Of a DNA stretch of 55,955 nt, positions 25,685-50,197 are shown in pieces (within the stretch, counting starts at the first letter, position 1; the number at the start of each line of letters is the position of its first letter). The stretch is from Actinomycetes bacterium (GTDB lineage Bacteria; Actinomycetota; Actinomycetes; Mycobacteriales; Pseudonocardiaceae). Where the stretch lies: positions 1 to 55,955 of the forward strand of contig JAJYTH010000010.1 in assembly GCA_021793175.1 (NCBI GenBank), in the 5' to 3' direction. The translations under genes and the position numbers were made by a program. Below the pieces are notes generated by a model. It saw only the letters and a program-made list of their open reading frames with translations, was not told the DNA's origin and did no database searches.

Positions 25685-26155
25685 ATGGCAGCACAGTGTA
25701 CGGATGCGGTCGACAAGCCCACTTTCACCACGGCGTCACTTCCCTGGCGCACCATCAGGCTCCCCGAACACGCGGATCCGCGGGGCAGCCTGGCGGTGGT
25801 GGAATCAGGCAAGGACGTGTTGTTCGACATCAAGCGGGTGTACTACCTCTACGACCTGCCGATCTCCACTGTGCGCGGCGCGCACGGACACCGCATGCTC
25901 GAACAGCTGATCATCGCCGTGCACGGGCAGTTCGAGATCGAACTCGACGACGGATTCCACACGGCGCGGGTGCGGCTCGACCACCCGGCGACCGGCCTCT
26001 ACATCGGGCCGATGGTGTGGCGGAATCTGGTGAACTTCTCCGCAGGTGCCGTCGGCCTGGTGCTGGCCTCCGCTCACTATGACGAGAGCGACTACTACCG
26101 CGACTACCCGAGCTTCCTCGCCGCTGCCCGGCGGCTCGGGAATGGAACGAAGTAA
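25685..26155 (+). CDS. FdtA/Tyl1a-type dTDP-sugar 3,4-ketoisomerase (WxcM-like)
   Basis: 156-aa single-domain cupin of the WxcM/FdtA family. These enzymes turn dTDP-4-keto-6-deoxyglucose into the 3-keto isomer, the step before 3-amination in mycaminose, ravidosamine or Fuc3NAc-type sugars. Visible marks: DPRGSLAVVE, the catalytic His pair in RGAHGHRMLEQLIIAVHG (His67, His69), and GPMVWRNLVNFS. ATG 25685 follows GTGAGGGG. It converges with the N-methyltransferase gene (10 bp gap), which would act two steps later on the same sugar. No aminotransferase or dTDP-glucose synthase is in the window. Confidence 0.85.
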   Translation: MAAQCTDAVDKPTFTTASLPWRTIRLPEHADPRGSLAVVESGKDVLFDIKRVYYLYDLPISTVRGAHGHRMLEQLIIAVHGQFEIELDDGFHTARVRLDHPATGLYIGPMVWRNLVNFSAGAVGLVLASAHYDESDYYRDYPSFLAAARRLGNGTK

Positions 26156-26165
26156 ACTTTTCGAC

Positions 26166-26891
26166 TCATCCGATTCCGACGAACAGCCCACGTCCGGATG
26201 GGCCACCCGGACGATAGTTCACTCGAAGCCCCGCCGATTCGAATGCCGTTTCGTACTGTTCGCGAGTGAACAGGGTGATGACATGCTCGGTTTCGATATG
26301 CCTGATGCCACCATCGGGGTCGCCGAGCAGGAAATGCACGCGCATTCGCGTCCGCCCCGCGTCCTCCACCGAATGTGACATCCGGGCGATGGTGCGCCGC
26401 CCGTCCCGCACGACATCGCCCGCCACGTAACCGGGCAGGAAAGTCTCCGGGAAATACCACGGCTCGACGATCACGACCCCGCCCTCGGTGAGATGGCGTG
26501 CGAAGTGCTCGATCGTGGCACGCAGCTCGGCCTCGTCGGCCGCGTAGCCGATCGAGCTGAACAGGCACGTGACGAGGTCGAATCGCCTTCCGAGGGCGAA
26601 CTTCCGCATATCCGCCTTGTGCAGGGGCACGCCGGGCAGGCGGGAAGCGGCGATGTCCAACATGGCCGAGGACAGCTCCAGCCCCTCGGCCTCAGACACC
26701 CGCTCGGCGAAGTGCCGCAGGTGTTCGCCGGTGCCGCAGGCGACGTCGAGGACGGATCCCGGTTCTCGCCCGGCCGCTTCGGCGGCCTCGGCCAGCACCA
26801 TCGCGACCTCGGTCGCGTAGTCCCTGCCGCGGGTCTCATACAGGGCGTCGTACATCGATGCGAGTTCAGGAGCGTACTCAGTGCCGCCCAC
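26166..26891 (-). CDS. dTDP-3-amino-deoxysugar N,N-dimethyltransferase, DesVI/TylM1-like
   Basis: 241-aa SAM-dependent methyltransferase. The N-terminus (YDALYETRGRDYATEV) and SAM motif LDVACGTGEHLRHF (about residues 48-61) match TylM1/DesVI, which dimethylate the 3-amino group of the dTDP-sugar in mycaminose or desosamine synthesis. The later segment VIVEPWYFPETFLPGYV is also typical. GTG 26891 follows AGGAGG at 4 nt; an ATG at 26966 would add residues unlike the family. With the ketoisomerase beside it, this implies a 3-dimethylamino-6-deoxyhexose. Confidence 0.87.
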   Translation of the reverse strand: MGGTEYAPELASMYDALYETRGRDYATEVAMVLAEAAEAAGREPGSVLDVACGTGEHLRHFAERVSEAEGLELSSAMLDIAASRLPGVPLHKADMRKFALGRRFDLVTCLFSSIGYAADEAELRATIEHFARHLTEGGVVIVEPWYFPETFLPGYVAGDVVRDGRRTIARMSHSVEDAGRTRMRVHFLLGDPDGGIRHIETEHVITLFTREQYETAFESAGLRVNYRPGGPSGRGLFVGIG

Positions 26892-27356: not shown

Positions 27357-28052
27357 ATGGTCACTGTGGGGCTGGTCGAGGACGCGAGCAAGCTCAATTC
27401 AGATGACGGCAGACTGTCCTGGCTCCACGCCCTCGACCTCCAGAGACTCCACATTGAACTGACAGCGACCATGCCCACGCTCGAGGAAGCACTCCGCGGT
27501 TCGGGCTCATTACGCAGCCCAGACGTATGGATCGCCAGATCTTCCGACATTCTTCGCTGCACCCGATGGCCCCGCCTGCTCGACAAACGAACGGGCGAGT
27601 CCGGCCATACGGTGCGGCCGATCGTCGCGGTGTGCTCGGGAGAGCGGACGGAGATCAGCGATGTCCTCAGACGCGGAGTCTCCGCGGTAGTACGGATGAC
27701 CGACTCTCCATGGCACCTGGCGGCGGCGATCCATTCGGCGTCCACTTTGCACCTGTTCATCTCGCCCCAGTCGCTCAGCGATTACCGCGGCGATGTGATC
27801 GGCCTGTTCTCCGGCCCCGAAGAGACCACCCTCAACTCCTTGACCGAACGCGAACGCGAGGTGCTGACCTGCCTCGCACATGGCATGTCCAACCCCATGA
27901 TCGCCGCGCACTTGCACATCACCCGGGCCACGGTCGGCTCGCACGTCCTGCGTATCCTGCGGAAACTGGACGCGTCGAACCGGACCGAGGCCGCAGCGAT
28001 AGCCCACTCGCTGGGTTTGGTCGGCAACAGGCAGGCGTTCGCGTCGAGCTGA
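27357..28052 (+). CDS. LuxR-family regulator with degenerate receiver domain (copy 1)
   Basis: 231 aa. The first 150 residues fold like a response-regulator receiver ([43 protein letters not shown]) but the strand that should end in the phospho-acceptor Asp reads [10 protein letters not shown], with no clear Asp at that place. Residues 163-225 are a canonical GerE/LuxR HTH ([34 protein letters not shown]). No partner kinase is near. It is the same length as, and close in sequence to, the regulator at 37009, and it faces the leftward ABC/glycosyltransferase operon. Likely cluster-specific, phosphorylation-independent control. Confidence 0.88.
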
Positions 28053-28065: not shown

Positions 28066-28824
28066 TCAGCCGACACGCCTGTCCCAGCGGAAGAATCGCC
28101 GGGCCGCCATCGCCCCCACGACAGCCCAGGCCGACAGGACGAGCAGGCCCGGTACCGAATCGGCGAGCTGCCCGGCGAACGAACCCGTCGGATCGTAGGC
28201 GATACGCATCAGGTCGACGATCGCTCCGCCCGGCGTCCACAGCTGTTCCGCGGAAGGCCCGGCCGCGCCATTCGTCGCGCCCCAGATGCCGGTCGCCAGC
28301 AGGAAGAGGAAGAAAGGCATACCCGCCATGTCGGCCTGTTGGGGGCTCGACACCAATCCGGTGGTGGCGAAACCCAGCGTAGCGGCCATCACGACGCCGA
28401 GCACGACGGTCAGCAGCAAGACGAGCACGTTGCGGGGCGAGGCGGGGCCGAGCGCCCACACGATGCCCACGGCGAGTACGCACTGCAGCAGACCGAGCAC
28501 CACCAACGGTGAGCTGATTCCGATGATGATCGTGCTGTCTCCGGCCTCGCCGCTACGCAGCCGCTTCAGGTAGAGATCCTCCCTCCGAGCGGTCAACGCG
28601 AGCGCCGTACTGATGTACACCGTCATACCGATGATGAGCAGGATCTGTAGCGCCACGGGCAGCGCCCAGCCGAGCGGGCCGAGGTTGTCCTGGGAGAACA
28701 GGGTCATGAAGACCGCCATCACCACGGGGACGATCAAGGCGGTCGCCGCCACCGTGGAGTTACGGGCCAACAACTTGGTCTCGGCGAGGAACAGCGCGTT
28801 GATCTGCTTGCGTGTGAGACTCAT
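28066..28824 (-). CDS. ABC-2 type transporter permease
   Basis: 252-aa membrane protein with about six helices (VAATALIVPVVMAVFMTLFS; ILLIIGMTVYISTALALTAR; VLGVVMAATLGFATTGLVSS). The segment AARREDLYLKRLRSGE-like between helices 2 and 3 is typical of drug- or antibiotic-export ABC-2 permeases. ATG 28824 overlaps the stop of the ATPase gene. Together they form a DrrAB-like exporter or self-resistance pump at the end of the glycosyltransferase operon. Confidence 0.9.
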   Translation of the reverse strand: MSLTRKQINALFLAETKLLARNSTVAATALIVPVVMAVFMTLFSQDNLGPLGWALPVALQILLIIGMTVYISTALALTARREDLYLKRLRSGEAGDSTIIIGISSPLVVLGLLQCVLAVGIVWALGPASPRNVLVLLLTVVLGVVMAATLGFATTGLVSSPQQADMAGMPFFLFLLATGIWGATNGAAGPSAEQLWTPGGAIVDLMRIAYDPTGSFAGQLADSVPGLLVLSAWAVVGAMAARRFFRWDRRVG

Positions 28825-29783
28825 CGGAGCTCCCCCTGGACGGGCTGGACACCGGTCATGGGCACCGTCTCCACCCGGTTGCGGTCGAGTACGTCGTGGA
28901 AGACCTGGTCGAGCGAGGCGTGGTGGGCGCGGAACCTCCGCAAGGGGAACTGGTGCGCGCTCTGCCACTGCATCACCGCACGCAGGTCGTGTTCCAGGTC
29001 GGGAGTGCGGATGTGGACCCGTCCCTCACGTAAGCGTTCGGGGTCCAGGTCCCCCGCCAAGCCGGGCAGGTCCAGCTCGAACGGACCCGGCGGCAGGTCG
29101 AAACCGATGTGGGCGCGTTGAGCGCTGAGCACATCCGCCAGGGCACCCTCCACGGCGATCCGACCGTCATGCATGATCGCCAGCCGGTGGGCGAGGTTCT
29201 CCGCCTCGTCGAGGTAGTGCGTGGTGAGGACGATGCTGACACCGTCGGCGAGCAGTTCGCGTACGAATGCCCACACGGTGGTGCGGGACTCGGGGTCCAG
29301 ACCCGTCGTCGGTTCGTCCAGGAACAGCAACGACGGTGAGTTCAGTGTCGCCAGCACCAGGTCGAGCCTTCGCCGTTCCCCACCGGAGAGCTGCTTGACC
29401 CGGACGTCGCTGCGGTGATCCAGACTCAGTCTTTCCAAGCTGGCCCGCGGATCGGAATCACGGCTGCTCATCGCACGGCACAACTCCACCGTCTCGGCCA
29501 CCGTGAGATCCCCGGCGAATCCGCTGTCCTGCAACATGATGCCGATCCGACTGCGCAGTTCTTTGCGGTCGCCCACCGGGTCGAGCCCCAACACGCGTAC
29601 CGATCCGCCGGCCGGCCTGCGATGACCTTCGAGCGTCTCCAGCGTTGTGGTCTTACCTGCGCCGTTGGTGCCCAACAACGCGAACAGCTCCCCACGCTCG
29701 ACGTGGAAGTCTATCCCTTTCACCGCTTCGAATGAGCCGTAAGAGCAATGTAGATCGTTCACTTCCACCACGGGACCATGCAT
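28821..29783 (-). CDS. ABC transporter ATP-binding protein (DrrA-like)
   Basis: 320 aa. Walker A LLGTNGAGKTTT, signature VKQLSGGERRRLDL, Walker B LLFLDEPTTGLDPES and H-loop TTHYLDEAENLAHR are all intact. A C-terminal extension of about 100 residues is typical of DrrA-type antibiotic exporters. ATG 29783 lies close to GGAG (2-nt spacing); GTG codons just inside are alternatives. Works with the overlapping permease gene. Confidence 0.93.
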   Translation of the reverse strand: MHGPVVEVNDLHCSYGSFEAVKGIDFHVERGELFALLGTNGAGKTTTLETLEGHRRPAGGSVRVLGLDPVGDRKELRSRIGIMLQDSGFAGDLTVAETVELCRAMSSRDSDPRASLERLSLDHRSDVRVKQLSGGERRRLDLVLATLNSPSLLFLDEPTTGLDPESRTTVWAFVRELLADGVSIVLTTHYLDEAENLAHRLAIMHDGRIAVEGALADVLSAQRAHIGFDLPPGPFELDLPGLAGDLDPERLREGRVHIRTPDLEHDLRAVMQWQSAHQFPLRRFRAHHASLDQVFHDVLDRNRVETVPMTGVQPVQGELR

Positions 29784-29872: not shown

Positions 29873-31153
29873 TCATGCTCGACGCGCCGCGTGTTCTCGG
29901 GTGCGACGTATCAACTCGTCCGCGACCTCGGCGGGTGAGGGTTGGGCCAACAACTCGGCACGCAGTCGCTCGGACTCCCGGCGGTACGACGGGTCGTCCA
30001 GCAGCCGCTGGAGTTTGTCGCGCACCGACTCCACCGTCAACGTGCTCGCGGGCTCGACCAATCCCGCACCGTGCTCGGCGAGCCGTGCGGCCTTCCACGG
30101 TGCGTCCCAGATGTCCGGCAGGACCAGTTGCGGTGTTCCCGATCTCAGTGCCGTGCACCAGGTTCCCGCACCACCGTGGTGGATGACCGCCGCGCACGTC
30201 GGCAGAAGAGCGTGCATCGGCACGTTCTCTACTAGCCGTACGGACGAGGGAAGTCGACCCAGCTCTCCTCTCTGCGCGGCGCCGGCGGTGACGACGAGCT
30301 CGATGTCCGGCGATGCCAGCGCTCTCACGAGCTCACCGAGAGGCACACTGGTGTGCCCCAGGCCGGAACGCGCCGAGACCCCGAGCGTCACACACACCCG
30401 AGGACGGTCGGGTTTCTCGCGCACCCAGTCCGGAACCAGCGCGGGTCCGTTGTACGGCACGTAACTCATCGGCAGCCGTGGTTGCGCGGTGGACAGGCCC
30501 AGGCTGGGAGATTCCTGGTCGACGACCCAGTGTCCCTCCACCACGGTTTCGTCGAAGTCCCGACCGTACTTGCGCAGTGTCCAGGTGAGCCACTCCTCCA
30601 GCGGATCGTCTCGAAGAGGTCCGGGTGTGTTCGACTGCGCGTCGAGGAAAGCCTGCCGGGTCGCTCCCAGGACGTCCGCGCTCCACAGCAGTCGGGCGTG
30701 AGCGGCTCCCGTGACCGTGGCCGCTATCGCCCCGGCCCAGGTGAGCGGCTCCCAACACACGAGGTCAGGTTCCCACTCCTCGGCGAACGTCACGAGACCA
30801 TCCACCATGGACTTGTTGTTCAGTGGGGCGAAGAGTCCGGGAACCAGGATCGTGTAGAAACCGAGCAGGTCGTGCGGGTCCGGGTCGGCGAGCAGATCGG
30901 TGAAGTCGATCCTCGGAGCCGTTCCGGCCGTGGCTGTGTTGGCCGCGAACTTCTCCGCCCACTGATGGTCCTCGCCCACGGGCACGAAGGTGAGTCCGCT
31001 GCGGGTGACGGCATCGGCGAGCGAAGGCTGGGAAGCCACCCGGACCTCGTGACCGGCACAACGCAACGCCCAGGCCAACGGCACCATCGAGTAGTAGTGC
31101 GTGGGGTGGGCGATCGTCGTGAACAATACCCGCATCGGTTCGAAAGGGCTCAT
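29873..31153 (-). CDS. Activator-dependent macrolide-type glycosyltransferase (DesVII/TylM2-like)
   Basis: 426-aa GT-B glycosyltransferase. The opening MRVLFTTIAHPTHYYSMVPL, the acceptor-side domain with EEWEPDLVCWEPLTWAGAIA, and the C-terminal donor motif (AVIHHGGAGTWCTALRSGTP, then QLVLPDIWDAPWKAARLAE) match DesVII, EryCIII and TylM2, which attach desosamine or mycaminose and need a P450-like helper. That helper is encoded immediately upstream: the ATG at 31153 overlaps its stop (ATGA). The donor is probably the dimethylamino sugar implied by the genes at 25.7-26.9 kb. Acceptor unknown: no polyketide synthase lies in the window. Confidence 0.92.
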   Translation of the reverse strand: MSPFEPMRVLFTTIAHPTHYYSMVPLAWALRCAGHEVRVASQPSLADAVTRSGLTFVPVGEDHQWAEKFAANTATAGTAPRIDFTDLLADPDPHDLLGFYTILVPGLFAPLNNKSMVDGLVTFAEEWEPDLVCWEPLTWAGAIAATVTGAAHARLLWSADVLGATRQAFLDAQSNTPGPLRDDPLEEWLTWTLRKYGRDFDETVVEGHWVVDQESPSLGLSTAQPRLPMSYVPYNGPALVPDWVREKPDRPRVCVTLGVSARSGLGHTSVPLGELVRALASPDIELVVTAGAAQRGELGRLPSSVRLVENVPMHALLPTCAAVIHHGGAGTWCTALRSGTPQLVLPDIWDAPWKAARLAEHGAGLVEPASTLTVESVRDKLQRLLDDPSYRRESERLRAELLAQPSPAEVADELIRRTREHAARRA

Positions 31154-32247
31154 CGAGTACTCACCTGCCATTGGGCGAAACGCCGAGTCACCGGGCTCCG
31201 TGGCCTGCGCAGTGGTTCGGCCTCGGAGCGGAGGCCGGGAAACCGGGTCAGCAGTACGTCCGCGGCGATGGTCACGGTGAGGTCGAGAAGGTTCCGGAGG
31301 GCCGCGCTCCAGGGGTCGGCCGCCACCACGGTGTCCACCATGTTCGTGTCGTCCGGGGCGAGGTGCCGGTCCTGTGGTTCGACGAGCACCACGACCTGGT
31401 CGTTCTCGGGGATTCGGTGCCCGCCCAGTTCGAGGTCGTGTTGCGCCACGCGTGGAAGCAGCCGCAGTGGAGGATTGCGGTGGCTCCACCACCGCGTTTC
31501 TCCGCCCGTGCAGTGTTCGCGCAGAGCGGCGACCACCGCGGTCGGTGCCGTGGCGAGGTAGAGCACCGTCAAAGGCAGCGGCGGGTGGGTGGCTCGGTCG
31601 TCCGTGCCGCGTCCGACAGCGAGGTGCGCCGCCCGTACCGCGGCCGTCACCGCGAGCACGTCGTCCAGTGTCTGTGGCGTGGCCAGCGCGTCCGAGACAC
31701 AGGCGAGGCCTCGGACGTGTCCCGCCAACGTGTCCGCGTCCTGCCCGGCGTGGCGGGCGACCTCGGTGAGCGCGCGGACTGCCAGTGGTCCTGCATAGTC
31801 ACCGACCAGGTCGAAGGACTCGTGGTGTTCGAGCTCTCGGGCGAGCCGGAAGGCGTGTTCGGTGAGCGCGTTCGTCCACGACTCGTGGAATCCGGGCGTG
31901 GTGGCGAGCGCGGCCACGATGCGCTCCCTCTCAGTGGGACCGGGTGTCAATCCCGCCTCGGGTAACGGCAGGATCTGTAGGTGCGCTTTGTGGCCGTCGG
32001 TGCGCAGATGGCCGAACGCGTCGTCTGTGAGCACCGTGGTGGCTAGAGCGGGGTCCGTGACGATCCACGCACCCACGGCGCTGCGCGTCACCGGCGTGGT
32101 GAATGCCAAAGGTTCGATCGTCGACGACGGGTCGACATAGTCGCGCAGTAGGTGTGCGTAGGCGTCACCGGCCAACGCTTCCTGCCAGATCGCACCACGG
32201 ACGCTCTGCAACCGCAGACCAAGCTCGGCTTTGGTCAGCACCGCCAT
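31150..32247 (-). CDS. P450-like glycosyltransferase activator (DesVIII/EryCII-like)
   Basis: 365 aa. Similar to cytochrome P450 in overall layout (early VGAWIVTDPALATTVLTDDA; late NPPLRLLPRVAQHDLELGGH and RIPENDQVVVLVEPQDRHLA) but the haem-binding loop with its Cys is missing: after DDTNMVDTVVAADPW the chain goes straight to the last helix. This is the hallmark of DesVIII/EryCII/TylMIII proteins, which bind and activate the partner glycosyltransferase instead of doing oxidation. Start inside the end of the previous gene (13-bp overlap); GGAG 8 nt ahead. Confidence 0.9.
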   Translation of the reverse strand: MAVLTKAELGLRLQSVRGAIWQEALAGDAYAHLLRDYVDPSSTIEPLAFTTPVTRSAVGAWIVTDPALATTVLTDDAFGHLRTDGHKAHLQILPLPEAGLTPGPTERERIVAALATTPGFHESWTNALTEHAFRLARELEHHESFDLVGDYAGPLAVRALTEVARHAGQDADTLAGHVRGLACVSDALATPQTLDDVLAVTAAVRAAHLAVGRGTDDRATHPPLPLTVLYLATAPTAVVAALREHCTGGETRWWSHRNPPLRLLPRVAQHDLELGGHRIPENDQVVVLVEPQDRHLAPDDTNMVDTVVAADPWSAALRNLLDLTVTIAADVLLTRFPGLRSEAEPLRRPRSPVTRRFAQWQVSTR

Positions 32248-33506
32248 GATGTGGACTCCGACACCCCGACCCATCGTTCCAGCGCGACGCACGCGCGTTC
32301 CACGGCCGATTCCGCGCGTATCATGCGTCCGAGCTCCTCGGCCCGCCGACGCATGTCCGAGTCGTGGACGGCCTGCTTCAGCGCACGGCGCACGAGGCCC
32401 GGTTCCAGTCGCGATCCGGGGATGCCCTGCGGGGCGACACCGAGTGCCTCCATCCTTTCGGCCCAGAACGGGTGGTCCACGAAGATCGGGGCGACGACCT
32501 GTGGAACACCCGCTCGCAACACCGCCGCGCCGGTGCCGAATCCGCCGTGGTGGACCACGGCCGCCGCGCGGGGGAACAGCCACGTGTAGTCGACGTCGTG
32601 CAGGCGGACCACGTCCGGCGGCAGTCGGTCCCCGTCGGGCCCGTCGATCACCACGACCTTGCGTCCCTGGGCCCGTGCCGCGGCGACGACAGTGGCCAGG
32701 CTGTGCTCAGGGTAGGCGGGCCACAGGGAACCGAACGACAGCACGATCGGCGCAGGCCCCTCCTCGACCGCCGCGATCGCCTCTGGAGTCGGTTCCCACT
32801 CCCGGTCCCAGAACCAGTAGCCGTCCATGTGGACGGTGTCCGGCCAGTCACTCGGTTTCGGTAACACCGCAGGACTCTGCAGGCAGAAGGCCGGCCTGCC
32901 ACGTTCCAGTTCGGCGAACGGCACTCGACCGCCCAGCGCCCGCTTGCCCAGTTTCGCGCGATAGGCGTTCACCACAGGCCGGCTCGTACGCCACTCGATG
33001 CGCTGGGACACGTGGTGGCTGATCCGGTTGTACAGCCCTCCGAGCGGAAGCCTGGGCATACCCATCGCGGGAAACGCCGACGTGGGGGTGTTCGGGTACC
33101 ACGACACGAACGTCCACGGGATGTCCGGTGGGCGACCGAGGAAGGCGTTGCGCACGAACGGCGAGGTGACCAGAGCGTCGGCTCCCTCGCTCGCCCGGTG
33201 CACGTACCCCGCCATCACCGCCGTCGCCTCGGCGGCGACCGCCGCGTCCTGCTTGGGCATCCTGCGCACGAGTTGCCACGGCGAGCGGCTCGACCTCAGT
33301 GACGCGATCACTTCCGGGGAACCGAAATAATGCGCCGGACTGCCAGGAACGACCGCGTATTCGAGCCCCGCCTCGTGGGTCAGGTCACGGAAATCGGCGT
33401 GAGTCGCCAAACACACGTCGTGCCCTCGGGAACGCAACGCCGAGCCCAGAGCGAGGAACGGCTGTACATCGCCACGTGAACCGATCGCCACCAATGCGAT
33501 GCGCAC
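32235..33506 (-). CDS. UGT-type glycosyltransferase (GT1, GtfE/sterol-GT-like)
   Basis: 423-aa GT-B enzyme. N-terminal MRIALVAIGSRGDVQPFLAL and the C-terminal donor-binding AAAVVHHGGFGTGAAVLRAG with VPQVVAPIFVDHPFWAERM are typical for the group of vancomycin-type and sterol glycosyltransferases. It needs no P450-like helper. Two different glycosyltransferases in one operon imply two sugars or two sites. GTG 33506 follows AAGGAGG. Its stop lies inside the start region of the P450-like gene. Confidence 0.92.
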   Translation of the reverse strand: MRIALVAIGSRGDVQPFLALGSALRSRGHDVCLATHADFRDLTHEAGLEYAVVPGSPAHYFGSPEVIASLRSSRSPWQLVRRMPKQDAAVAAEATAVMAGYVHRASEGADALVTSPFVRNAFLGRPPDIPWTFVSWYPNTPTSAFPAMGMPRLPLGGLYNRISHHVSQRIEWRTSRPVVNAYRAKLGKRALGGRVPFAELERGRPAFCLQSPAVLPKPSDWPDTVHMDGYWFWDREWEPTPEAIAAVEEGPAPIVLSFGSLWPAYPEHSLATVVAAARAQGRKVVVIDGPDGDRLPPDVVRLHDVDYTWLFPRAAAVVHHGGFGTGAAVLRAGVPQVVAPIFVDHPFWAERMEALGVAPQGIPGSRLEPGLVRRALKQAVHDSDMRRRAEELGRMIRAESAVERACVALERWVGVSESTSWRC

Positions 33507-34849: not shown

Positions 34850-34858
34850 GGCCGTCTC

Positions 34859-41609: not shown

Positions 41610-41625
41610 AGGTCCACAAACCTCC

Positions 41626-43443
41626 TTACACCAGGGGAAGTGAGCCGCGCAGCGAGCCGACCGCACAGTTTTGGCCCGATACCGTTTCCGCACGGCCGGA
41701 CGGGCCACCGAACTGGATCGAGGTCAACCGCTGGTACAGCGGGCTGTCCTGCAGCAGCTGTTCGTGTGTGCCCATCGCCCGCACTTCGCCCGCGTCCATC
41801 ACCACGATCCGGTCGGCGTCCACGATGGTGGAAAGCCGGTGGGCGACGCTGATCACCGTGCACTCACGGGCGATCTGGGTGACGGTGTTCCGCAGCATCA
41901 GCTCGGACTCCGAATCCAAATTGGATGTCGCTTCGTCGAGGAGGAGGACGGACGGTCGACGCAGCAAGGTCCGCGCGACCGCCAACCGCTGGCGCTCACC
42001 GCCGGACAGCCCCGCACCGCTTTCACCGAGCTCGGTGTTCAGGCCCTTGGGCAGCCTCCGCACGACCGGTTCCAACCCACTGAGGGCCAGCGCGCGTTCG
42101 AGCTCACTGTCGCTTGCTCCGCTCTGCCCGTACAGGAGGTTGTCGGCGATGGTGCCACGCAGTGCCGTACTCTCCTGCTGCACGTAGCCGACCAGTTTGC
42201 GCAATTCTCGCACCGGGATCGTGTTGATGTCCTGCCCGCCGATGAGGATGCGCCCATCCTCCAACGGGTAGAACCGCATCAGCAGTTGCAACAACGTGGT
42301 CTTACCGGAGCCCGAGGGACCGACGATCGCGGTCAGCCCCCGGCCCGGAGCCGTGAACGAGACGTTCCGCAACGCCGGTGTGTCACCGTGGCTGAAACTG
42401 GCCCTTTCGAATCTCACTTCGTCGTGGCTTTGTTCGGACAGGTTCACGGTGTCCACCGAATAGACGGGGGACCGCACCTCGGCCTCCTGCTCGATGTCGG
42501 CCAGTTCGCTGATCCGACCGATCGCCGCCCTGCCCTGCTGAAGCTGTCCGATGGCCATGAACAGCGTGATCAGGGGCGACACCAGGTAGAACAGGTACAT
42601 GATGAACGCGGTCAGCGAGGCGGCGCTGAGTGAGCCCGTGGCCACCCGGCTCATCCCGGTCACGATGACGACGGCGAGCGACACCTGCATACCGATGCCC
42701 ATCGCGGGCGCCAGCAGCGCCCCGAGCGCACTGACCCTGATGCCGGACCGGCGAGCCGCGAAAGCGAGTTTGCCGATCCGATCCTTCTCGAAGTCCTCCG
42801 CTCCGGAGGACTTCACGGTGGCGAGCGCGCTGATCGCTCGATGCAGGTCGGCGCCGAAATCACCCATGATCGTGCGTTGCTGGGTGGCGACGACCTTGAG
42901 CCTGCGGGCCAGGACCAGGGACAGAACGCTGGCGACCGCCAGACAGCCGAGCGTGATCCCCAGCAGCAACGGGTCGATGAGGAACATCAGCACGGCCCCG
43001 CCGAGCACCATGGCGGTGTCGACGACGATGGAAGACAGGCTCTGGGACAAGGCGATACGCAGCATCGCCGTGTCGGCGATGATGCGGGACGAGATGTCAC
43101 CGATCCGGTGCTTACCGAACGCGCGGTAGTCGGCTCCGAGTACGCGATCGACCAGCACGGTCCTGGTCTGGTAGACGATGCTCTCGCCGGTGCGCCCCAT
43201 GGCGTAGGCCTGCAACGCGCTCAGCGTGGCCTCCGCTGCGAACAGCAGCAGCACGATCACGATCGGCCAGGCCAGGGGCGCGCTGTTCTCCACCGTGGCG
43301 ATCAGTTGCCCGATGAAGACGGGTTGGGCGAGGCCGGCCACAGCGGCCACCAGACCGAGCAGCACGGCGCCGGCGATCTTGCCCGCGTGCTTCCTGGTGA
43401 TGTGGCCAACGAGGCCGGCCTCACCTTCCAACCGCACCCTCAA
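41626..43443 (-). CDS. ABC exporter (fused membrane and ATPase domains)
   Basis: 605 aa: six-helix ABC1 domain (about residues 20-310) and ATPase domain with Walker A VGPSGSGKTTLLQLL, Q-loop GYVQQESTALRG, signature AGLSGGERQRLAVARTLL, Walker B VLLLDEATSNLDSES and H-loop AHRLS. Belongs to the peptide/lipid exporters such as LanT/MsbA-like ones, but has no N-terminal C39 peptidase domain, so leader removal must be done elsewhere (the M16 pair is the obvious candidate). ATG or GTG start overlaps the HTTM2 stop. Confidence 0.93.
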   Translation of the reverse strand: MRVRLEGEAGLVGHITRKHAGKIAGAVLLGLVAAVAGLAQPVFIGQLIATVENSAPLAWPIVIVLLLFAAEATLSALQAYAMGRTGESIVYQTRTVLVDRVLGADYRAFGKHRIGDISSRIIADTAMLRIALSQSLSSIVVDTAMVLGGAVLMFLIDPLLLGITLGCLAVASVLSLVLARRLKVVATQQRTIMGDFGADLHRAISALATVKSSGAEDFEKDRIGKLAFAARRSGIRVSALGALLAPAMGIGMQVSLAVVIVTGMSRVATGSLSAASLTAFIMYLFYLVSPLITLFMAIGQLQQGRAAIGRISELADIEQEAEVRSPVYSVDTVNLSEQSHDEVRFERASFSHGDTPALRNVSFTAPGRGLTAIVGPSGSGKTTLLQLLMRFYPLEDGRILIGGQDINTIPVRELRKLVGYVQQESTALRGTIADNLLYGQSGASDSELERALALSGLEPVVRRLPKGLNTELGESGAGLSGGERQRLAVARTLLRRPSVLLLDEATSNLDSESELMLRNTVTQIARECTVISVAHRLSTIVDADRIVVMDAGEVRAMGTHEQLLQDSPLYQRLTSIQFGGPSGRAETVSGQNCAVGSLRGSLPLV

Positions 43444-44309
43444 GCCTCTTTCTTCCTACGTCCTAGGGCGCGGGAGCAGTACATCACCGCCGGGTAAGTA
43501 CCGAGGAAGGCCCATACGAAGCGGTTGAGTCCCATGAGGACGGCATTGCCCGCGTGGAATCCCGCTCCGGTAGCCAGCAGCGCACGGGCCACCGGAGCGG
43601 GAGCGACAAGCACCAAGGGGAAGAGCATCTCGCCCACGATGGTGCCCATGCCGACCGCACGAGAGAGTTTGGGGCGAGTACGCAGGAACTCGAACGCGCG
43701 CTTGTGGCCGAACATGTGGGTACGGAAGATGTCGCGCACGGCGCTTCCGTCCCTCCACACCGGGGAGACGAGTTTGGCGACTCCGGCGATGCCGTACGAC
43801 AGGCACGACTGCGCGGCGATGAACCAGAGGCAGGCTTGGCGGGCGCGGGCGTCGGAACCGAACCAACGACCCAACGCGATGCTGGTCAACGAGAGAGTGA
43901 GCACGGCTTCCGATCCGTCGGAGCCGTAAGGACTGCGGGCGTGCACGGCGAAATTGGTCGCCGCGAGGTAGGTCGCCGCCGCGGTCTTGCTCGACGAGGA
44001 GGAACGCGGATGGAGCAACGTCGCCGCCGCCATCACCCGTAATCCGAACAGCGCCTGGATACCCGGCTTGTCGAACACCACGCCCAGGGCCTTCGCGGGT
44101 CGGCCCGTCATCCACCGGTACCGGGTACGTGCGACGTCCCAGCTCAGCAGCTCACCCCGGTCGAAGTCACGAGACGAGGCGAGGTACTCCAGCGACGACA
44201 CGGCCGCGCCCAGTCCGGTCAACTGCTCGACCCGGCGGAAAGCGCGGTCTTGTTCCTTACGGTCGATCGCGGAGGCGAATCGCTTCTCCAGGGACTCGAT
44301 GAGGGCCAC
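43440..44309 (-). CDS. HTTM-domain membrane protein, SdpB-like (copy 2)
   Basis: 289 aa, paralogue of 35836. Conserved FIAAQSCLSYGIAGVAKLVS and PVWRDGSAVRDIFRTHMFGH, EMLFPLVLVAP, AGNAVLMGLNRFVWAFLG. Early soluble part has RRVEQLTGLGAAVSSLEYLA, as in copy 1 (QRVERLTATGATISALELLA). GTG 44309 follows AAGGAAGG. Directly downstream of precursor 3 and its hairpin. Confidence 0.82.
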   Translation of the reverse strand: MALIESLEKRFASAIDRKEQDRAFRRVEQLTGLGAAVSSLEYLASSRDFDRGELLSWDVARTRYRWMTGRPAKALGVVFDKPGIQALFGLRVMAAATLLHPRSSSSSKTAAATYLAATNFAVHARSPYGSDGSEAVLTLSLTSIALGRWFGSDARARQACLWFIAAQSCLSYGIAGVAKLVSPVWRDGSAVRDIFRTHMFGHKRAFEFLRTRPKLSRAVGMGTIVGEMLFPLVLVAPAPVARALLATGAGFHAGNAVLMGLNRFVWAFLGTYPAVMYCSRALGRRKKEA

Positions 44310-44382: not shown

Positions 44383-44643
44383 TCACTTGATGCTGTCGAC
44401 CCGCATCCCGAGCAGCTCGTCCACGGAGCCCGACTCCGGAACCGGGCCGGTGGGCGACACCTCGGAGGCGTGGTGGTTCTCGACCAGGTCCGTGATCAGA
44501 CCCAGCGTGAACACGACACCGGCACCGGCGGCGTAGCCGGCGTAGGCCGGGGTGGCCAGGACCGGGCCGACAGCGGCGCCCACCTGCAGCGGGCTGAGCG
44601 TCTCGTCCGCAGTGGAGTTAGCGAACTTTTCCACAGTGCTCAT
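44383..44643 (-). CDS. Candidate peptide precursor 3 (86 aa)
   Basis: Again exactly 86 aa. Leader-like MSTVEKFANSTADETLSPLQ, hydrophobic middle from about residue 27 (GPVLATPAYAGYAAGAGVVF, then TLGLITDLVENHH), and follower PESGSVDELLGMRVDSIK. It keeps the spacing of the two other copies and the PVL.TPA motif, but is more distant. GAGGAG precedes the ATG. It stands directly before HTTM2, the exporter, hydrolase 2 and SdpA2, so it is the natural partner of cassette 2. Confidence 0.85.
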   Translation of the reverse strand: MSTVEKFANSTADETLSPLQVGAAVGPVLATPAYAGYAAGAGVVFTLGLITDLVENHHASEVSPTGPVPESGSVDELLGMRVDSIK

Positions 44644-44769: not shown

Positions 44770-45891
44770 TCACAGCACGGGAAATCGTGGATATCCACCG
44801 AATTGCGTACGAGCGACCTCCCCTTCGGCCGCGGCACCGAAAACCGAGTGCGAGGACAGTGATTCGACTTCTCTCCAAGCCCGCTCCAATGGGTGTCCAC
44901 TGTAGAGTGAACTGCCTCCGGCCTTGGTGAAGACGAACCGCACCGTCGCAAGAGCCGCTTGCTGTGCGTGGAACTGCGCCGCGGCCAGCCGTACCCGGAT
45001 TCCACGGGACGGCGTCATATTGGCCGCGGGAACCGCTGCCGTCCTCGCCGTCTCGGCGATCAGCAGTTCCCGCGCGGCCAGGAAGCCTTGCACGGATCGG
45101 TTGAGTTCACGTTGCAACATCGGTTGCTCGATCATGCGCTCGACCGATCCCGCCCGGGACCGATGTCGGGCCGTCGCGACGAACTCACGCACGGCCCGGC
45201 GAGTGATTCCGAGAAGCACACCGGTGGCGGCCTGCCGGGTGTGCAGCGGCATCGGTAGCGACCGGGAGTGCCGAGACAACTGGGGTCCGGTCACATCGAC
45301 GACCTGCTCGTAAGCCACGGTGACCTCGTCGCACACCACGTCCGGTGCGGCGGTGTCGTCGAACCGTCCGGAGTCGACGGAAGCCTCCCTGCGCACGGAC
45401 GCGGCCGGGAGCAGCGCCACCAGCTCGCGTGGTCCGCAGCGGCACGGCAACGCTACCCAGTCGGCGCAGTCCGCTCCCGGGACCTCGTGCCAACGTCCCG
45501 TGAGCAGCAGGCCGTCCTCGCCGGGTTCGAGCACACCGCTGACCGTGTCGGCACCTGCGACGTGCGCGCCCTCGTCCACGCCATCCCGCAGCGAGGGAAT
45601 CGCCCAGTGGAGTACGGCGGCGGCCTGTGCGGCCACGAACAGCCTGCCCATCGGGCCGTCCTCATGGCCGATGTGTTCACAGACGTGCAGCAGTGTCTCC
45701 GGTGAAGTCGCCGCGCGCCACGGCGCGGACAGATCGAGCAGCCCCGCTTCCCGGAGCGCGGTCGTCACCGACATACCGTCCTGCGTGGCGGCCACAGCCC
45801 GGCGTGCGGCGTCCACCGCCTGCGCCGCCGATGGGCCACATCGCTCGTCCACGGAGATCGTTCCCGTCACTGTGGCTCCTTGCCCGTTCAT
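44770..45891 (-). CDS. Acyl-CoA-dehydrogenase-fold flavoprotein (short)
   Basis: 373 aa. Recognisable but divergent ACAD fold: helical N-domain (RRAVAATQDGMSVTTALREA, LLHVCEHIGHEDGPMGRLFV), central beta-domain (LLLTGRWHEVPGADCADWVA) and C-terminal four-helix domain (AATGVLLGITRRAVREFVAT, KAGGSSLYSGHPLERAWREV). SGHPLERAWREV is the usual place where ACADs read R..RD. The base Glu of true acyl-CoA dehydrogenases cannot be placed with certainty. Overlaps the larger ACAD gene (ATGA), suggesting a heteromeric flavoenzyme. Confidence 0.82.
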   Translation of the reverse strand: MNGQGATVTGTISVDERCGPSAAQAVDAARRAVAATQDGMSVTTALREAGLLDLSAPWRAATSPETLLHVCEHIGHEDGPMGRLFVAAQAAAVLHWAIPSLRDGVDEGAHVAGADTVSGVLEPGEDGLLLTGRWHEVPGADCADWVALPCRCGPRELVALLPAASVRREASVDSGRFDDTAAPDVVCDEVTVAYEQVVDVTGPQLSRHSRSLPMPLHTRQAATGVLLGITRRAVREFVATARHRSRAGSVERMIEQPMLQRELNRSVQGFLAARELLIAETARTAAVPAANMTPSRGIRVRLAAAQFHAQQAALATVRFVFTKAGGSSLYSGHPLERAWREVESLSSHSVFGAAAEGEVARTQFGGYPRFPVL

Positions 45892-47393
45892 GTCGCATCG
45901 GGATGTCCGACAAGCCGCAGCGCATTGCGCCGGTAGACGTCGTCGCTGACGGCCAGGTGTTGGCCCGCGCCGTAACAGTCACGGAGCAACCCGCGTAGCG
46001 TGCGGGACGTTTCGAAGGAACCGACGTGTTCCACCGACCTCGACACCTGTTCGATCACGTGTTTGGCCGTGTCCACGGCCTGCCGCAACACCAGTGCCAG
46101 TCGTGCCGCGGACCGCGGTGCCAGCTGTGGTTCGAGGGAGAGTTCCTCCCAGTACTCGTCCACGGTGTCGAGCGCGAGCGCGCGGGCGGCGGCGAGAGCG
46201 GTTTCCAGTCGCGCGAACTCGATGGCGGTCTCCTCCGCCCACGGCACGGTGGGCGACGACATCAGCGCGGTGAGCTCGTCCAGTGCCCGGCGTGCCAGGC
46301 CGAGCGGCAACCCGATCATGAGCACGCCCTGGATGTTGTAAGGGCTGAGCCGATGCAACGGGTCGGGCGACTGGGACGGTTCGGTGAACAGCGGCGCGAT
46401 GAAGTCGGCGGGCACGTCCACATCGTTGAGGACGATGTCGTGGCTGCCGGTTCCGGCCAGCCCCGCTACGTGCCACGTGTCGAGTACCTCGGCCTTCCTC
46501 CACGGCACGAACGCCAATCGGGGTACCCGCGTACCGTCGTCGGCCGGCACGGTCACGCCCGCCATGATCCAGTCGGCGTGCAGGCAGCCACTGTTGAAAC
46601 GCCAGCGCCCGTTGAGGCGGTAGTGCCCGTCACCGCTCGGTTCGGCGGTGCCCGTCACCGCCGTCGAGCCCGCGAGCACGAACGACCCGTTCTCCCCGGA
46701 CATTCGTGCCAACGTCTTCGGTGGCAACCATGCGGCGTAGGCGTTCTGGTTGCCGATGAATGCGCACCACCCGGTGGCCGCATTGGCTCGGCTCAGTTCC
46801 TCGATGACGGCCACGACGGTCCGGCCGGACAGGTCCGCTCCACCGAGCGAGCGGGGCAGTCCGATGCGGAAGATTCCACACTCACGCAGAGCCGCGACCA
46901 CCGCGGGGTCGAGTGTGCGAGCGCGGAGGGAGTCCTGGGCCCGGCCACGGGAGATCGGTGCCAGTGCCCGCGCCTTGTCGAGCGGGTCCTCGTATGTGCG
47001 GGCGATCTCGACGATGTGGCTCGTCTTCTCGATCGTGGGAGCACACGCGTCGGCTTTGCGCCAGAACTCCGCGACCGGGGCGGGGGCCTCGGGCCACAGT
47101 GCCCAGGTGGCGGTGGACAGCTCACCCGCGGAAGCGACGGCGCAGGTGAGCACGGTGCGTTCCCCGCAACGTACTTCCATGGTGAAGGACGTGGGATCCG
47201 CGATCGTCTCGATGTCGCAGTCGGTCCCCGCGTGTCCGAGTCGGTACCGAGTCCGGCCGTTGGCACGTCCCGTGAACTCCACGGAGACGGCACTGCCGAC
47301 CAACCACGGCCAGCACTGCGGGGCGGACAGCAGGTGCCATGTCCATTCGACCGGCACGGCCACCGACACGGTCACCTTGTCCGGATCGCTCAC
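45888..47393 (-). CDS. SRPBCC-ACAD fusion flavoprotein
   Basis: 501 aa. Residues 1-115 look like an SRPBCC (START/polyketide-cyclase-like) ligand-binding domain (VAVPVEWTWHLLSAPQCWPW, FTMEVRCGERTVLTC). From about residue 140 an acyl-CoA-dehydrogenase-type flavoprotein of the HsaA/nitrososynthase class follows (LRECGIFRIGLPRSLGGADL, ANAATGWCAFIGNQNAYAAW, GTGSHDIVLNDVDVPADFI). Members of that class act as flavin-dependent N- or C-monooxygenases or dehydrogenases. GTG follows GGAGGAACG. The fusion is unusual. Confidence 0.85.
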   Translation of the reverse strand: MSDPDKVTVSVAVPVEWTWHLLSAPQCWPWLVGSAVSVEFTGRANGRTRYRLGHAGTDCDIETIADPTSFTMEVRCGERTVLTCAVASAGELSTATWALWPEAPAPVAEFWRKADACAPTIEKTSHIVEIARTYEDPLDKARALAPISRGRAQDSLRARTLDPAVVAALRECGIFRIGLPRSLGGADLSGRTVVAVIEELSRANAATGWCAFIGNQNAYAAWLPPKTLARMSGENGSFVLAGSTAVTGTAEPSGDGHYRLNGRWRFNSGCLHADWIMAGVTVPADDGTRVPRLAFVPWRKAEVLDTWHVAGLAGTGSHDIVLNDVDVPADFIAPLFTEPSQSPDPLHRLSPYNIQGVLMIGLPLGLARRALDELTALMSSPTVPWAEETAIEFARLETALAAARALALDTVDEYWEELSLEPQLAPRSAARLALVLRQAVDTAKHVIEQVSRSVEHVGSFETSRTLRGLLRDCYGAGQHLAVSDDVYRRNALRLVGHPDAT

Positions 47394-47481: not shown

Positions 47482-48801
47482 TTACCGGTCCGTCGATCGA
47501 TGCACCATCGTTTGGGACTCGGGCAGTTGCGCGTGGAGGGTCGCTGTGTCCCCCAACACGATCTCCGTGGCCAGCTCCGGGTCGAGGTAACGCCGTGCCA
47601 CGGATTCCACATCGGATTCCGTCACGGTGTTCAGGTGCCGTAGGTGTCGCTCGACCCAGTCGAGTTCGACTCCCTGGTCGGCGAGCAGCAGCATCAGGTC
47701 GGCCAATTGTGCGGAGGAGCCCATGGTGAGTGTGTGCCTGCCGAGCGCACATCCTCGGACGCGTTCCAGTTCCGCTCCTCGAACGGGATCGGTCGCCAGG
47801 CGACGCAGTTCCTGACGGATCAGGTCGAGTGCGGTGGCGGTGCTTTGCGGGGAGACGTCAGCCGACACCACCAGTTGGCTGGCCTGGCGCTGATGCACCA
47901 GGACCGAGCGTGGCGTGTAGGCACAGCCGTGGCGTTCCCGCAGGGTCTCCACGAGCCGGCAGGAATACATGCTTCCCAAGGAGAGATGGGCCAGCTCCAC
48001 GGCGGGAAAGTCGGGGTGCCCCAGGCCGACGACGTCCAGCCCGAGACGGATCGACGACTGCACCGCCGATCGACGGTGCACCAGGGTCAACGACCCCGGG
48101 CGTGGTGGGGGCACCGGTGGAGCGGAGGGTACGGGCTCCGGCCCTCCGAGCCAAGAGGCGAGCGCGTCGGAGGCCGCCTCGAATGTGTCGGTGACCGGTT
48201 CCGGGGCGACCACGATGAGGGTCGCCGAGTCCGGCCGCAACCGGGACGCGTGGAGGTCGAGCACCTCGTCCGTGCTCACCTGCCGCACTCGCTCGGGAGA
48301 GGGCGCGGACTCTCCGTAGGGGTGGCCCGCGTACCGAACGGTGGTGAGTGCCTCCTGCACGGCCAGGGCGGGTTCACTGCCGGCCACCCGGAGCGCGTCG
48401 GCGATCCGGTTGCGGGCGGCGTTCGCGACCGGTTCCGGACAGTGGGGTGTCCGGAGCACCTCCGCGAGGAGGTCGAGCAGTTCACGGGTGTGTGTGGCGA
48501 GCGCATGTCCGCCTATGACGAGGCTGTCGGCGCCCGCAGCCGCGTACAGGTGGCCGCCGATGGCGTCCAACCTGTGCGGAAAGCGCTCTCTGCCCGAAAG
48601 AAGGGTCTCGGCCAACACGGCGGCGACGGCCGGTGCGCCGGTGAGCGGCACGCACAACCTCAGCTCGACCAGCGGGCCCGGCCTCGCCGCGGCGAGGACA
48701 CACAGCCCGTTCGCCAGCCGGGCCCGGTCATGACTGGGAACGCTGACCGAGTTCAGCGGCTCGACGGGTGGGATCGCCCCGGCCGCGGTCATGCCGTCCA
48801 T
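47482..48801 (-). CDS. M16-family peptidase-like protein, non-catalytic subunit
   Basis: 439 aa with two M16 halves, but the zinc motif HxxEH is absent (the matching place reads AAVLAETLLSGRERF). The second half keeps GHPDFPAVELAHLSLGSMYS and LRERHGCAYTPRSV, where R and Y bind substrate in two-subunit M16B peptidases. It therefore pairs with the catalytic subunit encoded just upstream (13-bp overlap). ATG 48801 has GGAGGCGACGGC ahead; ATG 48792 is also possible. Confidence 0.88.
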   Translation of the reverse strand: MDGMTAAGAIPPVEPLNSVSVPSHDRARLANGLCVLAAARPGPLVELRLCVPLTGAPAVAAVLAETLLSGRERFPHRLDAIGGHLYAAAGADSLVIGGHALATHTRELLDLLAEVLRTPHCPEPVANAARNRIADALRVAGSEPALAVQEALTTVRYAGHPYGESAPSPERVRQVSTDEVLDLHASRLRPDSATLIVVAPEPVTDTFEAASDALASWLGGPEPVPSAPPVPPPRPGSLTLVHRRSAVQSSIRLGLDVVGLGHPDFPAVELAHLSLGSMYSCRLVETLRERHGCAYTPRSVLVHQRQASQLVVSADVSPQSTATALDLIRQELRRLATDPVRGAELERVRGCALGRHTLTMGSSAQLADLMLLLADQGVELDWVERHLRHLNTVTESDVESVARRYLDPELATEIVLGDTATLHAQLPESQTMVHRSTDR

Positions 48802-50090
48802 GCCGTCGCCTCCGTGGTGAGTTCGACCGTGGCGCGTGGTCGCGAGCGAAGTGACGCCGCGGCCGCGCGAACGTCGTCCTCGTCCACCGAGGAAAGACGG
48901 CGCAGAAGTTTACCGCCGAAGGTGGGCTCGTTCCGTTGGAGAGCGAACCGGGCCGCCCACACGGCTCGCGCGGACACTTCGTCGAGACGCCCGGCCAACC
49001 GTGCGGTGAGTCGACCCCGAGCGCGGACGAGTTCGTCCGGCCCCGGTCCGACATCGGCGACCGAGTGGAATTCCCGGTCGACGGCAGCGAGTACCCGTGC
49101 CGCGTCGGTACCGGGACGAAGATAAGCGGCCACGCAGAACCCTGTGGGATCACGTACCCCGAATGGGTCGCCGACCAGGTTCGCCGCCGCGTCCACGGCC
49201 ACCGCGACACCGTCGTCGTGCACCAGCCGCTGCGACAGCGGCGCTCGGCCTCCGACCAGGAGTTCGGCCAACACCACGTACGGAAGGAAGGCCTCCAGGT
49301 CGTGGATCGGGTCGGGTACGCGCCAAGCCGCCGCCACCGCGGGGAACGGGGCGAGCGGATCATGCTGCTCACCATGCCGGCTTCGGGCCGGTTCGGGCTC
49401 GGCCGCGTCGATTCGGGGTGCTGACGTCGCGGCCGGGATATCGCCGAAGTAGGCATCGGTCAGGGTGAGTGCTTCCTCCGGATCAACCTGCCCGGCCACC
49501 GCCACCACCGCGTTCCCCGGTACGTAGTGGTCATGGAGGAACCGCTCGACGTCGCCGACGGTGGTCTCGGCCAGTCGCGCCATGTCCTCGTAACCGTGGT
49601 GGGTGTTGGCGAACCGGTCGAACAGCAAGGCCTTCAGGGCGCTTCGAGGGAAGGCCCCGTAGGGAACGTTGTTCACCGTGGACTGGAATTCACCGGCGAT
49701 CACCTCGATCTCACGTCGCAAGTGCTGCTCGGTCACCCGCAGCCCACGCATGCGGTCGGCCTCGCAGAACAGCACCTGTCGCAACGCGCCCGGCGGCACC
49801 ACCTGGTGGTACACCGTGTCGTCGGAGCGGGTCACCGCGTTGAACACACCCCCGGTCCGCTCCACGAGCCGCGCGTGTTCCCCCGGCCCGACGCCGGTGG
49901 AGCCCTGGAACATGAGGTGCTCCACCAGATGCGCGAGCCCCACCTGGTCCCTTCGTTCCGACCGGGTGCCGGCCCCGTACACCACCGCGACGCACACAGA
50001 GGGCACAGTGGACTCGGGGTCGACCACCACACGCAGCCCGTTGTCCAGTCTGGCCACATGCCCCGCCGTCGCGCGTGTTCTTCCCGACAT
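48789..50090 (-). CDS. M16-family zinc metallopeptidase, catalytic subunit
   Basis: 433 aa. Inverted zinc motif in GLAHLVEHLMF (His54, Glu57, His58), third ligand Glu134 (REIEVIAGEFQSTVNN), 76 residues later as in the family. M16 enzymes cut small unfolded peptides inside a closed chamber, suiting removal of leader or follower from an 86-aa precursor. No signal peptide, so cytoplasmic. ATG 50090 lacks its own strong ribosome site but overlaps the stop of a 35-codon frame (TGATG), so coupling is likely. Confidence 0.9.
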   Translation of the reverse strand: MSGRTRATAGHVARLDNGLRVVVDPESTVPSVCVAVVYGAGTRSERRDQVGLAHLVEHLMFQGSTGVGPGEHARLVERTGGVFNAVTRSDDTVYHQVVPPGALRQVLFCEADRMRGLRVTEQHLRREIEVIAGEFQSTVNNVPYGAFPRSALKALLFDRFANTHHGYEDMARLAETTVGDVERFLHDHYVPGNAVVAVAGQVDPEEALTLTDAYFGDIPAATSAPRIDAAEPEPARSRHGEQHDPLAPFPAVAAAWRVPDPIHDLEAFLPYVVLAELLVGGRAPLSQRLVHDDGVAVAVDAAANLVGDPFGVRDPTGFCVAAYLRPGTDAARVLAAVDREFHSVADVGPGPDELVRARGRLTARLAGRLDEVSARAVWAARFALQRNEPTFGGKLLRRLSSVDEDDVRAAAASLRSRPRATVELTTEATAWTA

Positions 50091-50197
50091 CAATTCGACG
50101 GGGGCGAGACGAGGGAGCCCGAACCGCGGTGGTCGACGTTCGCCCCTCCTCGGCTCAGCCACATCGCTGCGGTCACGATCGAGAAGCCCTGGGCCAT
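50090..50197 (-). CDS. 35-aa peptide coupled to the M16 peptidase gene
   Basis: ATG 50197 with GGAAGG about 9 nt upstream encodes MAQGFSIVTAAMWLSRGG followed by a Gly/Ser/Asp-rich tail ending VSPPSN. Its TGA overlaps the M16 ATG. It is the first gene after a promoter-like pair. Could be a leader peptide that sets translation of the peptidase, or a further small precursor. No family known to me. Confidence 0.5.
   Translation of the reverse strand: MAQGFSIVTAAMWLSRGGANVDHRGSGSLVSPPSN

Follow-up and report, generated by a model that had tools for sequence, protein, structure and literature searches.

The stretch of DNA analysed here, referred to as the window, comprises positions 1 to 55,955 of contig JAJYTH010000010.1 from an actinomycete of the family Pseudonocardiaceae (assembly GCA_021793175.1; 3.63 Mb in 187 contigs). 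Between positions 25685 and 50197 it holds an island of 26 features, 23 of them on the minus strand and several overlapping, which is a cluster of the known linaridin family of ribosomally synthesized and post-translationally modified peptides (RiPPs), unusual in having two sets of peptides and enzymes as well as aminosugar genes. Genes were called with a codon model, and the translated island proteins were scanned with Pfam and NCBIfam; the NCBIfam scans covered all but the FdtA, ABC-2 pair, M16a and LuxR genes, three proteins being judged among the matches listed (25 families). Apart from its precursors and two sets of putative maturation enzymes, the island encodes an ATP-binding cassette (ABC) exporter, an M16 peptidase pair, three flavoenzyme-like proteins, FdtA, two methyltransferases, two glycosyltransferases and a P450-derived activator, so that the inventory and the largely one-stranded, overlapping layout given by a first-pass annotation are borne out by the Pfam, NCBIfam and PDB matches. 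The same holds for its statement that polyketide synthase, non-ribosomal peptide synthetase, LanB, LanM, YcaO and radical-SAM genes are absent, none being found at the curated cut-off among the listed Pfam and NCBIfam matches of the island proteins. The features are as follows.

25685-26155, plus: FdtA/QdtA-type TDP-4-keto-6-deoxyhexose 3,4-ketoisomerase (TDP, thymidine diphosphate; Pfam FdtA 4.1e-47; PDB 2pa7 1.5e-32)
26166-26891, minus: MT1, aminosugar N,N-dimethyltransferase of TylM1/DesVI type (PDB 3pfg 4.7e-79)
27357-28052, plus: LuxR1 regulator (GerE 2.7e-18)
28066-28824, minus: ABC-2 permease, for export or immunity (Pfam ABC2_membrane)
28821-29723, minus: ABC ATPase, partner of the ABC-2 permease (Pfam ABC_tran)
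29873-31135, minus: activator-dependent glycosyltransferase of EryCIII/DesVII type (TIGR04516 547.8 bits, cut-off 440; PDB 2yjn 2.6e-114)
31150-32274, minus: P450-derived glycosyltransferase activator (TIGR04515 4.6e-49, 167.8 bits, under the cut-off of 343; no heme-Cys motif in the motif scan)
32235-33506, minus: second glycosyltransferase, GT28/MGT-like (Pfam, NCBIfam)
33516-34262, minus: MT2, CypM-like peptide N-methyltransferase (PDB CypM 7wzg 1.7e-26, CcbJ better at 6.1e-37; methyltransferase of the grm-type locus, E 9e-31)
34247-34849, minus: LinL_1, the SdpA-like protein of the first-pass annotation (LinL family alignment and scans)
34859-35839, minus: LinH-C_1, alpha/beta hydrolase, GHSVG (Pfam scan, motif alignment)
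35836-36729, minus: LinH-N_1, HTTM membrane protein (Pfam HTTM 6e-5, below cut-off; aligns with the grm-type and CT34 HTTM domains)
37009-37704, plus: LuxR2 regulator (GerE)
37710-37889, minus: 59-residue glycine-zipper membrane protein, candidate immunity protein (Pfam below cut-off; homologues 51-72% identical in loci L023, L041, L042 and L043)
38062-38322, minus: PreA, diverged beta-type precursor without PxxxTP, 86 residues
38575-38835, minus: PreB, beta-type precursor, PVLGTP, 86 residues
38925-40103, minus: halogenase-like FAD oxidoreductase with GxGxxG and WRWVLP (PDB 8zop 1.1e-26)
40100-40702, minus: LinL_2 (LinL alignment and tree)
40692-41708, minus: LinH-C_2, alpha/beta hydrolase, GHSFG (Pfam scan, motif alignment)
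41626-43443, minus: ABC exporter, permease-ATPase fusion (Pfam, NCBIfam)
43440-44309, minus: LinH-N_2, HTTM membrane protein (Pfam scan, tree, motif alignment)
44383-44643, minus: PreC, alpha-type precursor with FANS leader and PVLATP, 86 residues
44770-45870, minus: acyl-CoA-dehydrogenase/HsaA-like flavoprotein b (Pfam, NCBIfam)
45888-47393, minus: HsaA-like flavin monooxygenase a (ACADa), SRPBCC-like part at the N terminus (Pfam, NCBIfam, PDB search)
47482-48801, minus: M16 peptidase b, no HxxEH (Pfam, motif scan)
48789-50057, minus: M16 peptidase a, HLVEH zinc site (Pfam, motif scan)

The two sets of an HTTM protein, a hydrolase and an SdpA-like protein lie at 34247-36729 (set 1) and at 40100-41708 plus 43440-44309 (set 2), and their proteins are 35-46% identical between the sets. 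By sequence, the HTTM protein and the alpha/beta hydrolase together are the equivalent of LinH, and with LinL, to which the SdpA-like proteins belong, they form the signature enzymes of linaridins. In Pfam the LinL proteins meet only DUF5819, one copy at 27.2 bits against a cut-off of 27.1 and the other below it, and NCBIfam gives no match. A 20-row LinL alignment was therefore carried as a profile through a collection of genomes from 84,980 species, in which 151 stretches fitted the pattern and a relative was encoded in 125; of these the top 80, corresponding to 75 distinct loci, were retained. With nine and two more, 86 loci were examined (L036 and L078 denote one place, and L049 overlaps L113), and HTTM, hydrolase and LinL stand together in 80 of them, LinL being present there by selection. 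The profile gives two strong matches each in Streptomyces sp. CT34 and Streptomyces griseus (record NCTC13033), with E-values of 8.3e-33 for the grm-type locus of S. griseus and 2.8e-44 for the legonaridin-like locus of CT34. In the second S. griseus locus (L126), a 64-residue precursor with FANS, PAMATP and the core ATPAVAQFVIQGSTICLVC is followed by a 602-residue protein matching both HTTM_2 (E 7e-26) and hydrolase_2, then by LinL, a methyltransferase (E 9e-31 to MT2) and ABC genes, which is the grisemycin/cypemycin layout. A Thr-rich precursor of 65 residues in the second CT34 locus (L125) starts with MSVLAEFANTE, carries PTMITP and adjoins separate hydrolase, LinL and HTTM genes; this locus was used instead of the first (L112), in which no PxxxTP precursor was found. 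Strain or species and gene content suggest that L125 is the legonaridin cluster and L126 that of grisemycin, and the HTTM and hydrolase motifs of the window align with the fused L126 protein as well as with the separate L125 proteins.

In the corynaridin paper, LinL typically serves to find linaridin clusters, CT34 is the legonaridin strain, and the features described include the PxxxTP hexapeptide as well as an alpha/beta hydrolase and an HTTM protein (PMC9927463). Two regions on contig 3 of S. piscinae, 60896-82094 and 990976-1014377, are labelled 'Linaridin' by antiSMASH (PMC7380521, Table 1); they coincide with locus L032 and with a double-set locus related to that of the window (L028/L047), respectively. 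Because LinL, LinH, PxxxTP and the CypM-like MT2 all match linaridins, and because the locus of a relative bears the same label, the island is assigned to this family, and the new RiPP class proposed by the first-pass annotation is not upheld. GrmL has been described as indispensable and as a potentially novel peptide epimerase, several D-residues being present in type A linaridins (PMC10373908), and each HTTM/hydrolase/LinL set may therefore epimerise its precursor. An AlphaFold model of LinL (predicted local distance difference test score, pLDDT, 79.5; predicted template modelling score, pTM, 0.64) has no PDB match at E 0.001, and its predicted fold thus yields no mechanism.

The three 86-residue precursor-like genes recognised in the first-pass annotation are indeed homologous, with 15 of 92 alignment columns invariant, and two of them carry the hexapeptide (PVLGTP in PreB, PVLATP in PreC). 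The leader of PreC contains the FAN(S/T) element found in the L126 and L125 precursors, and a C-terminal tail around (E/Q/D)-L-(L/I)-x2-R is common to the precursors from double-set loci. PreA retains a beta-type leader and the tail with an altered core, no counterpart being seen in G001, the nearest relative; this gene is possibly a duplicate in decay, or else a third peptide. A looser scan for PxxxTP, which hit 48 of 75 loci and 17 of 75 in the reversed-DNA control, was too noisy, and a stricter motif, an open reading frame (ORF) with PxxxTP and a hydrophobic core, was used instead. With this motif, which was devised after the precursors had been seen, 46 of 75 loci have at least one such ORF, compared with 1 of 75 in reversed DNA, and at least two precursor-like ORFs occur in 36 of 75 compared with none, overlapping ORFs possibly being counted. 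The precursors of S. piscinae and P. cavernicola fail the strict motif. Among 397 genomes of the order, with at most 13 and 8 candidates scored per genome and misses therefore possible, the precursor profile has 17 matches in eight genomes, whereas LinL is present in 22, including all of these eight. Each of the 17 matches has a LinL gene no more than about 4 kb away, so that the association is not due to chance and, judged against LinL, no homologue of the 86-residue genes occurred without the accompanying genes.

Both sets were found together in 11 loci, those of the window, G001, A. marina, A. palatopharyngis, A. antarctica, P. rugosa, P. flavalba, S. halophila (a small gapped contig from which HTTM was not recovered), S. 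piscinae, P. cavernicola and Leifsonia sp. ALI-44-B, the last belonging to another family and spanning the overlapping loci L049 and L113. Quick maximum likelihood trees of chosen rows (47 of 96 for HTTM, 48 of 98 for LinL), with Shimodaira-Hasegawa-like approximate likelihood ratio (SH-aLRT) support and no bootstrap, separate set 1 from set 2 both for HTTM (10 + 10 rows, SH-aLRT 97 and 98) and for LinL (11 + 11 rows, 95 and 99), the set-2 rows of Leifsonia being long branches. In all eight double-set loci whose stretch covers the spot, HTTM_2 is closely preceded on its upstream side by an alpha precursor, which has the FAN leader; a beta precursor, with an MNxIE-like leader, directly precedes HTTM_1 in S. 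piscinae and P. cavernicola alone. Where the shared exporter was found it is single-copy; it was not found in Leifsonia. The DUF6292 and GDSL genes at 50374-52416, to the right of the island, also adjoin that of G001 (78-84% identical), and since they border both islands this flank is common to the two.

Several related loci were noted alongside. Streptomyces bicolor (L100, 548-10396) has a two-set linaridin-like locus with two PVLATP precursors that belongs to another branch, outside the trees, and in Actinopolyspora (L056, L057) a single LinH/LinL set stands between two beta-like precursors with the C-terminal tail. The genome of the window has a further LinL/hydrolase/HTTM set (C16:3204-3686 and neighbours; L039, 3165-5484), with a low third-position GC content of 0.57-0.65 and an HTTM protein that groups with the grm-type one on long branches, which is perhaps a second, recently acquired linaridin cluster. 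LinL and HTTM homologues also occur outside Actinomycetota, on a contig labelled as a Cytophagales metagenome-assembled genome (L111), and may reflect either genuine spread or a binning error.

The FdtA protein, the TylM1-like MT1 and the EryCIII-like glycosyltransferase with its activator point, by homology, to a 3-(dimethylamino)-3,6-dideoxyhexose resembling mycaminose. In the stretches read of the 11 double-set loci, several of which are shorter than the locus, glycosyltransferase genes are present in nine, and the mycaminose-like cassette is complete or partial in most of those nine. GT28 occurs in nine (partial in S. halophila), the activator with the EryCIII-like enzyme in seven, MT1 and FdtA in six each and a DegT aminotransferase in five (partial in S. 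halophila), and FdtA, MT1 and aminotransferase are all present in A. antarctica, P. rugosa and Leifsonia (all three by Pfam) and in P. flavalba (73% identity). The suggestion of the first-pass annotation that the product is 'perhaps glycosylated' is supported at the level of genes only. Of the remaining enzymes, M16a keeps HLVEH and M16b lacks this motif, a predicted active/inactive pair as has been described for lexapeptide (PMC8068269); ACADa resembles HsaA-type flavin monooxygenases, and the FAD protein resembles halogenases and QhpG/GoxB. The notion that the M16 pair is, as a rule, the enzyme for the C-terminal tail was dropped because the tail is present in P. flavalba, S. piscinae and P. 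cavernicola, where the stretches read contain no M16 homologue.

With grisemycin and cypemycin (type A) the island has in common LinL, the HTTM and hydrolase functions, a CypM-like methyltransferase, the FANS element and PxxxTP followed by a core starting ATPA. It differs in having LinH split into two genes, two sets, tailed precursors of 86 residues and sugar, M16 and oxygenase genes, and it is not filed as type A because its proteins show no CypD-like decarboxylase match in Pfam or NCBIfam and its precursors no C-terminal Cys. Legonaridin and corynaridin (type B) share with it the separate HTTM and hydrolase genes, LinL, the lack of a decarboxylase and PxxxTP near residue 30, but not the two sets, the glycosylation and flavoenzyme genes or the M16 pair, and the island cores have fewer Thr. 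The corynaridin core has seven Thr, a Thr-rich core being typical of type B though not defining, and corynaridin and other linaridin clusters are described as holding no leader-protease gene (PMC9927463). The homologous double-set locus of S. piscinae KCTC 19743 (990976-1014377) is uncharacterised and, unlike the island, has no sugar, methyltransferase, FAD or M16 homologue in the stretch read. Of the class V lanthipeptides cacaoidin and lexapeptide, cacaoidin is N-dimethylated and Tyr-glycosylated, with D-residues and an M16 peptidase (PMC8068269); the island resembles both in the M16 genes, but its glycosyltransferases are of other families. The dehydration and cyclisation enzymes of class V are named as PF17914/PF01636 (PMC7794033), neither of which matched the island proteins scanned with Pfam. 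The daptide methyltransferase family was likewise set aside, the scores being 71.8 and 79.6 bits against a cut-off of 175.

Sequence comparison provides the gene identities, the homology to the grisemycin-type and legonaridin-like loci and the conservation of the double set, and the reading that we consider probable is a two-peptide linaridin cluster whose chains would be partly D-configured, N-dimethylated and probably decorated with an aminosugar. The alpha peptide (PreC) would be modified by HTTM_2, hydrolase_2 and LinL_2 and the beta peptide (PreB) probably by HTTM_1, hydrolase_1 and LinL_1, each maturase most likely epimerising several core residues from L to D. Cleavage of the leader within PxxxTP would release cores starting ATPAYAGY (alpha) and GTPALVTA (beta), whose new N-termini MT2, likely the gene for N-terminal dimethylation, would dimethylate. 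A mycaminose-type dimethylated amino sugar would then be attached by the EryCIII-like glycosyltransferase with the P450-derived activator, and the GT28 enzyme may add a second sugar; the flavoenzymes may oxidise or halogenate a side chain, and the ABC proteins would export the products, which may act jointly. Several observations weigh against this reading. PreA lacks PxxxTP, the cores from the predicted cleavage site are Thr-poor (three in PreB, four in PreC), the precursors of sugar-free relatives have PVFCTT, PVLCTA, PALSAA, PVLCTE or PVLCCP, and the C-terminal tail is missing from the grm-type and most distant precursors. LinH or LinL has also been thought to account for dehydration, acting on Ser, and not for epimerisation (PMC7794033). 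The position of beta precursors varies, as in the other Pseudonocardiaceae loci read they lie between the sets (on the opposite strand in L044 and L045) and in Leifsonia after LinL_2, about 14 kb from set 1, which makes their pairing with set 1 weak.

An alternative that we hold to be a genuine, if less than even, prospect is that two linaridin pathways merely stand side by side, their peptides having no joint action. The separate clades of the two sets fit this, as do single-set loci such as those of Actinopolyspora, with two precursors and one set; on the other hand, 11 loci retain both sets, with one exporter copy where found, and it is common in the family for a locus to have at least two precursor-like ORFs (36 of 75). 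It is rather unlikely, in our estimate, that the peptides are unglycosylated and the sugar cassette serves another metabolite or simply adjoins the cluster. In its favour, no aminotransferase adjoins FdtA in the window, unlike in relatives, and the best DegT match elsewhere in the assembly is 41-47% identical (entry genes of the TDP-sugar pathway were not searched for); in G001 both glycosyltransferases and the activator are present, but FdtA and MT1 are missing from the stretches read and the MT1 match elsewhere in its genome is only 43%. These gaps also count against the preferred reading. Moreover, GT28 is the one sugar gene shown by the locus of A. palatopharyngis, and the stretches read of S. 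piscinae and P. cavernicola contain none (a 44% match to MT1 lies elsewhere in the P. cavernicola genome), which makes glycosylation a linked but variable trait. Against it, the order set 1, MT2, GT28, activator, EryCIII-like glycosyltransferase is kept in seven of the 11 loci (window, G001, A. marina, A. antarctica, P. rugosa, P. flavalba and Leifsonia); in A. antarctica and P. flavalba an extra gene stands between GT28 and activator. The linkage thus holds across two families. Alpha cores with ATPAYxxY were found in six of six read from glycosyltransferase-bearing loci and in none of six from glycosyltransferase-free ones, a small and ancestry-confounded count that hints at Tyr as the site of sugar attachment.

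A new RiPP class akin to Bacillus SDP, with SdpA/SdpB-type maturation, appears highly improbable. The two sets of the first-pass annotation are real as HTTM-type sets, and its expectation of a RiPP-type product with hydrophobic middle segments stands, but membership in the SDP family does not. The HTTM proteins match SdpB weakly (E 1.8e-4 and 0.0079), at 21.2 and 15.8 bits in TIGR04033, far under the cut-off of 178.4, and the local W-x-FF-x3-P likeness of LinL and SdpA is only a curiosity. No SdpA-family match was obtained for the island's SdpA-like proteins, in the window's own genome at 1e-5 or among 27 LinL proteins, and hhalign gives LinL and SdpA a probability of 0.8% (E 0.069). The linaridin set, including an alpha/beta hydrolase, accompanies 80 of 86 loci, whereas the SDP operon is described as sdpABC (PMC5719810).

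In its fullest form, the preferred two-peptide reading would make this the first two-chain linaridin, with two co-retained epimerase modules, one for each hydrophobic precursor, a macrolide-type dimethylaminosugar placed on one or both of these ribosomal chains by the activator-dependent EryCIII-like glycosyltransferase, a pair of HsaA-type oxygenases and M16 proteins that trim the conserved C-terminal follower, a proposal that we advance tentatively and with some doubt. No glycosylated, two-component or two-peptide linaridin was found in the literature searched, the coverage of which is partial and the absence accordingly weak. If true, linaridin maturase chemistry would be joined here with the aminosugar machinery of macrolides, a pairing not seen in the material searched, and the presence of two paralogous LinH/LinL sets in one cluster would offer a natural experiment on peptide recognition by a poorly understood membrane maturase.

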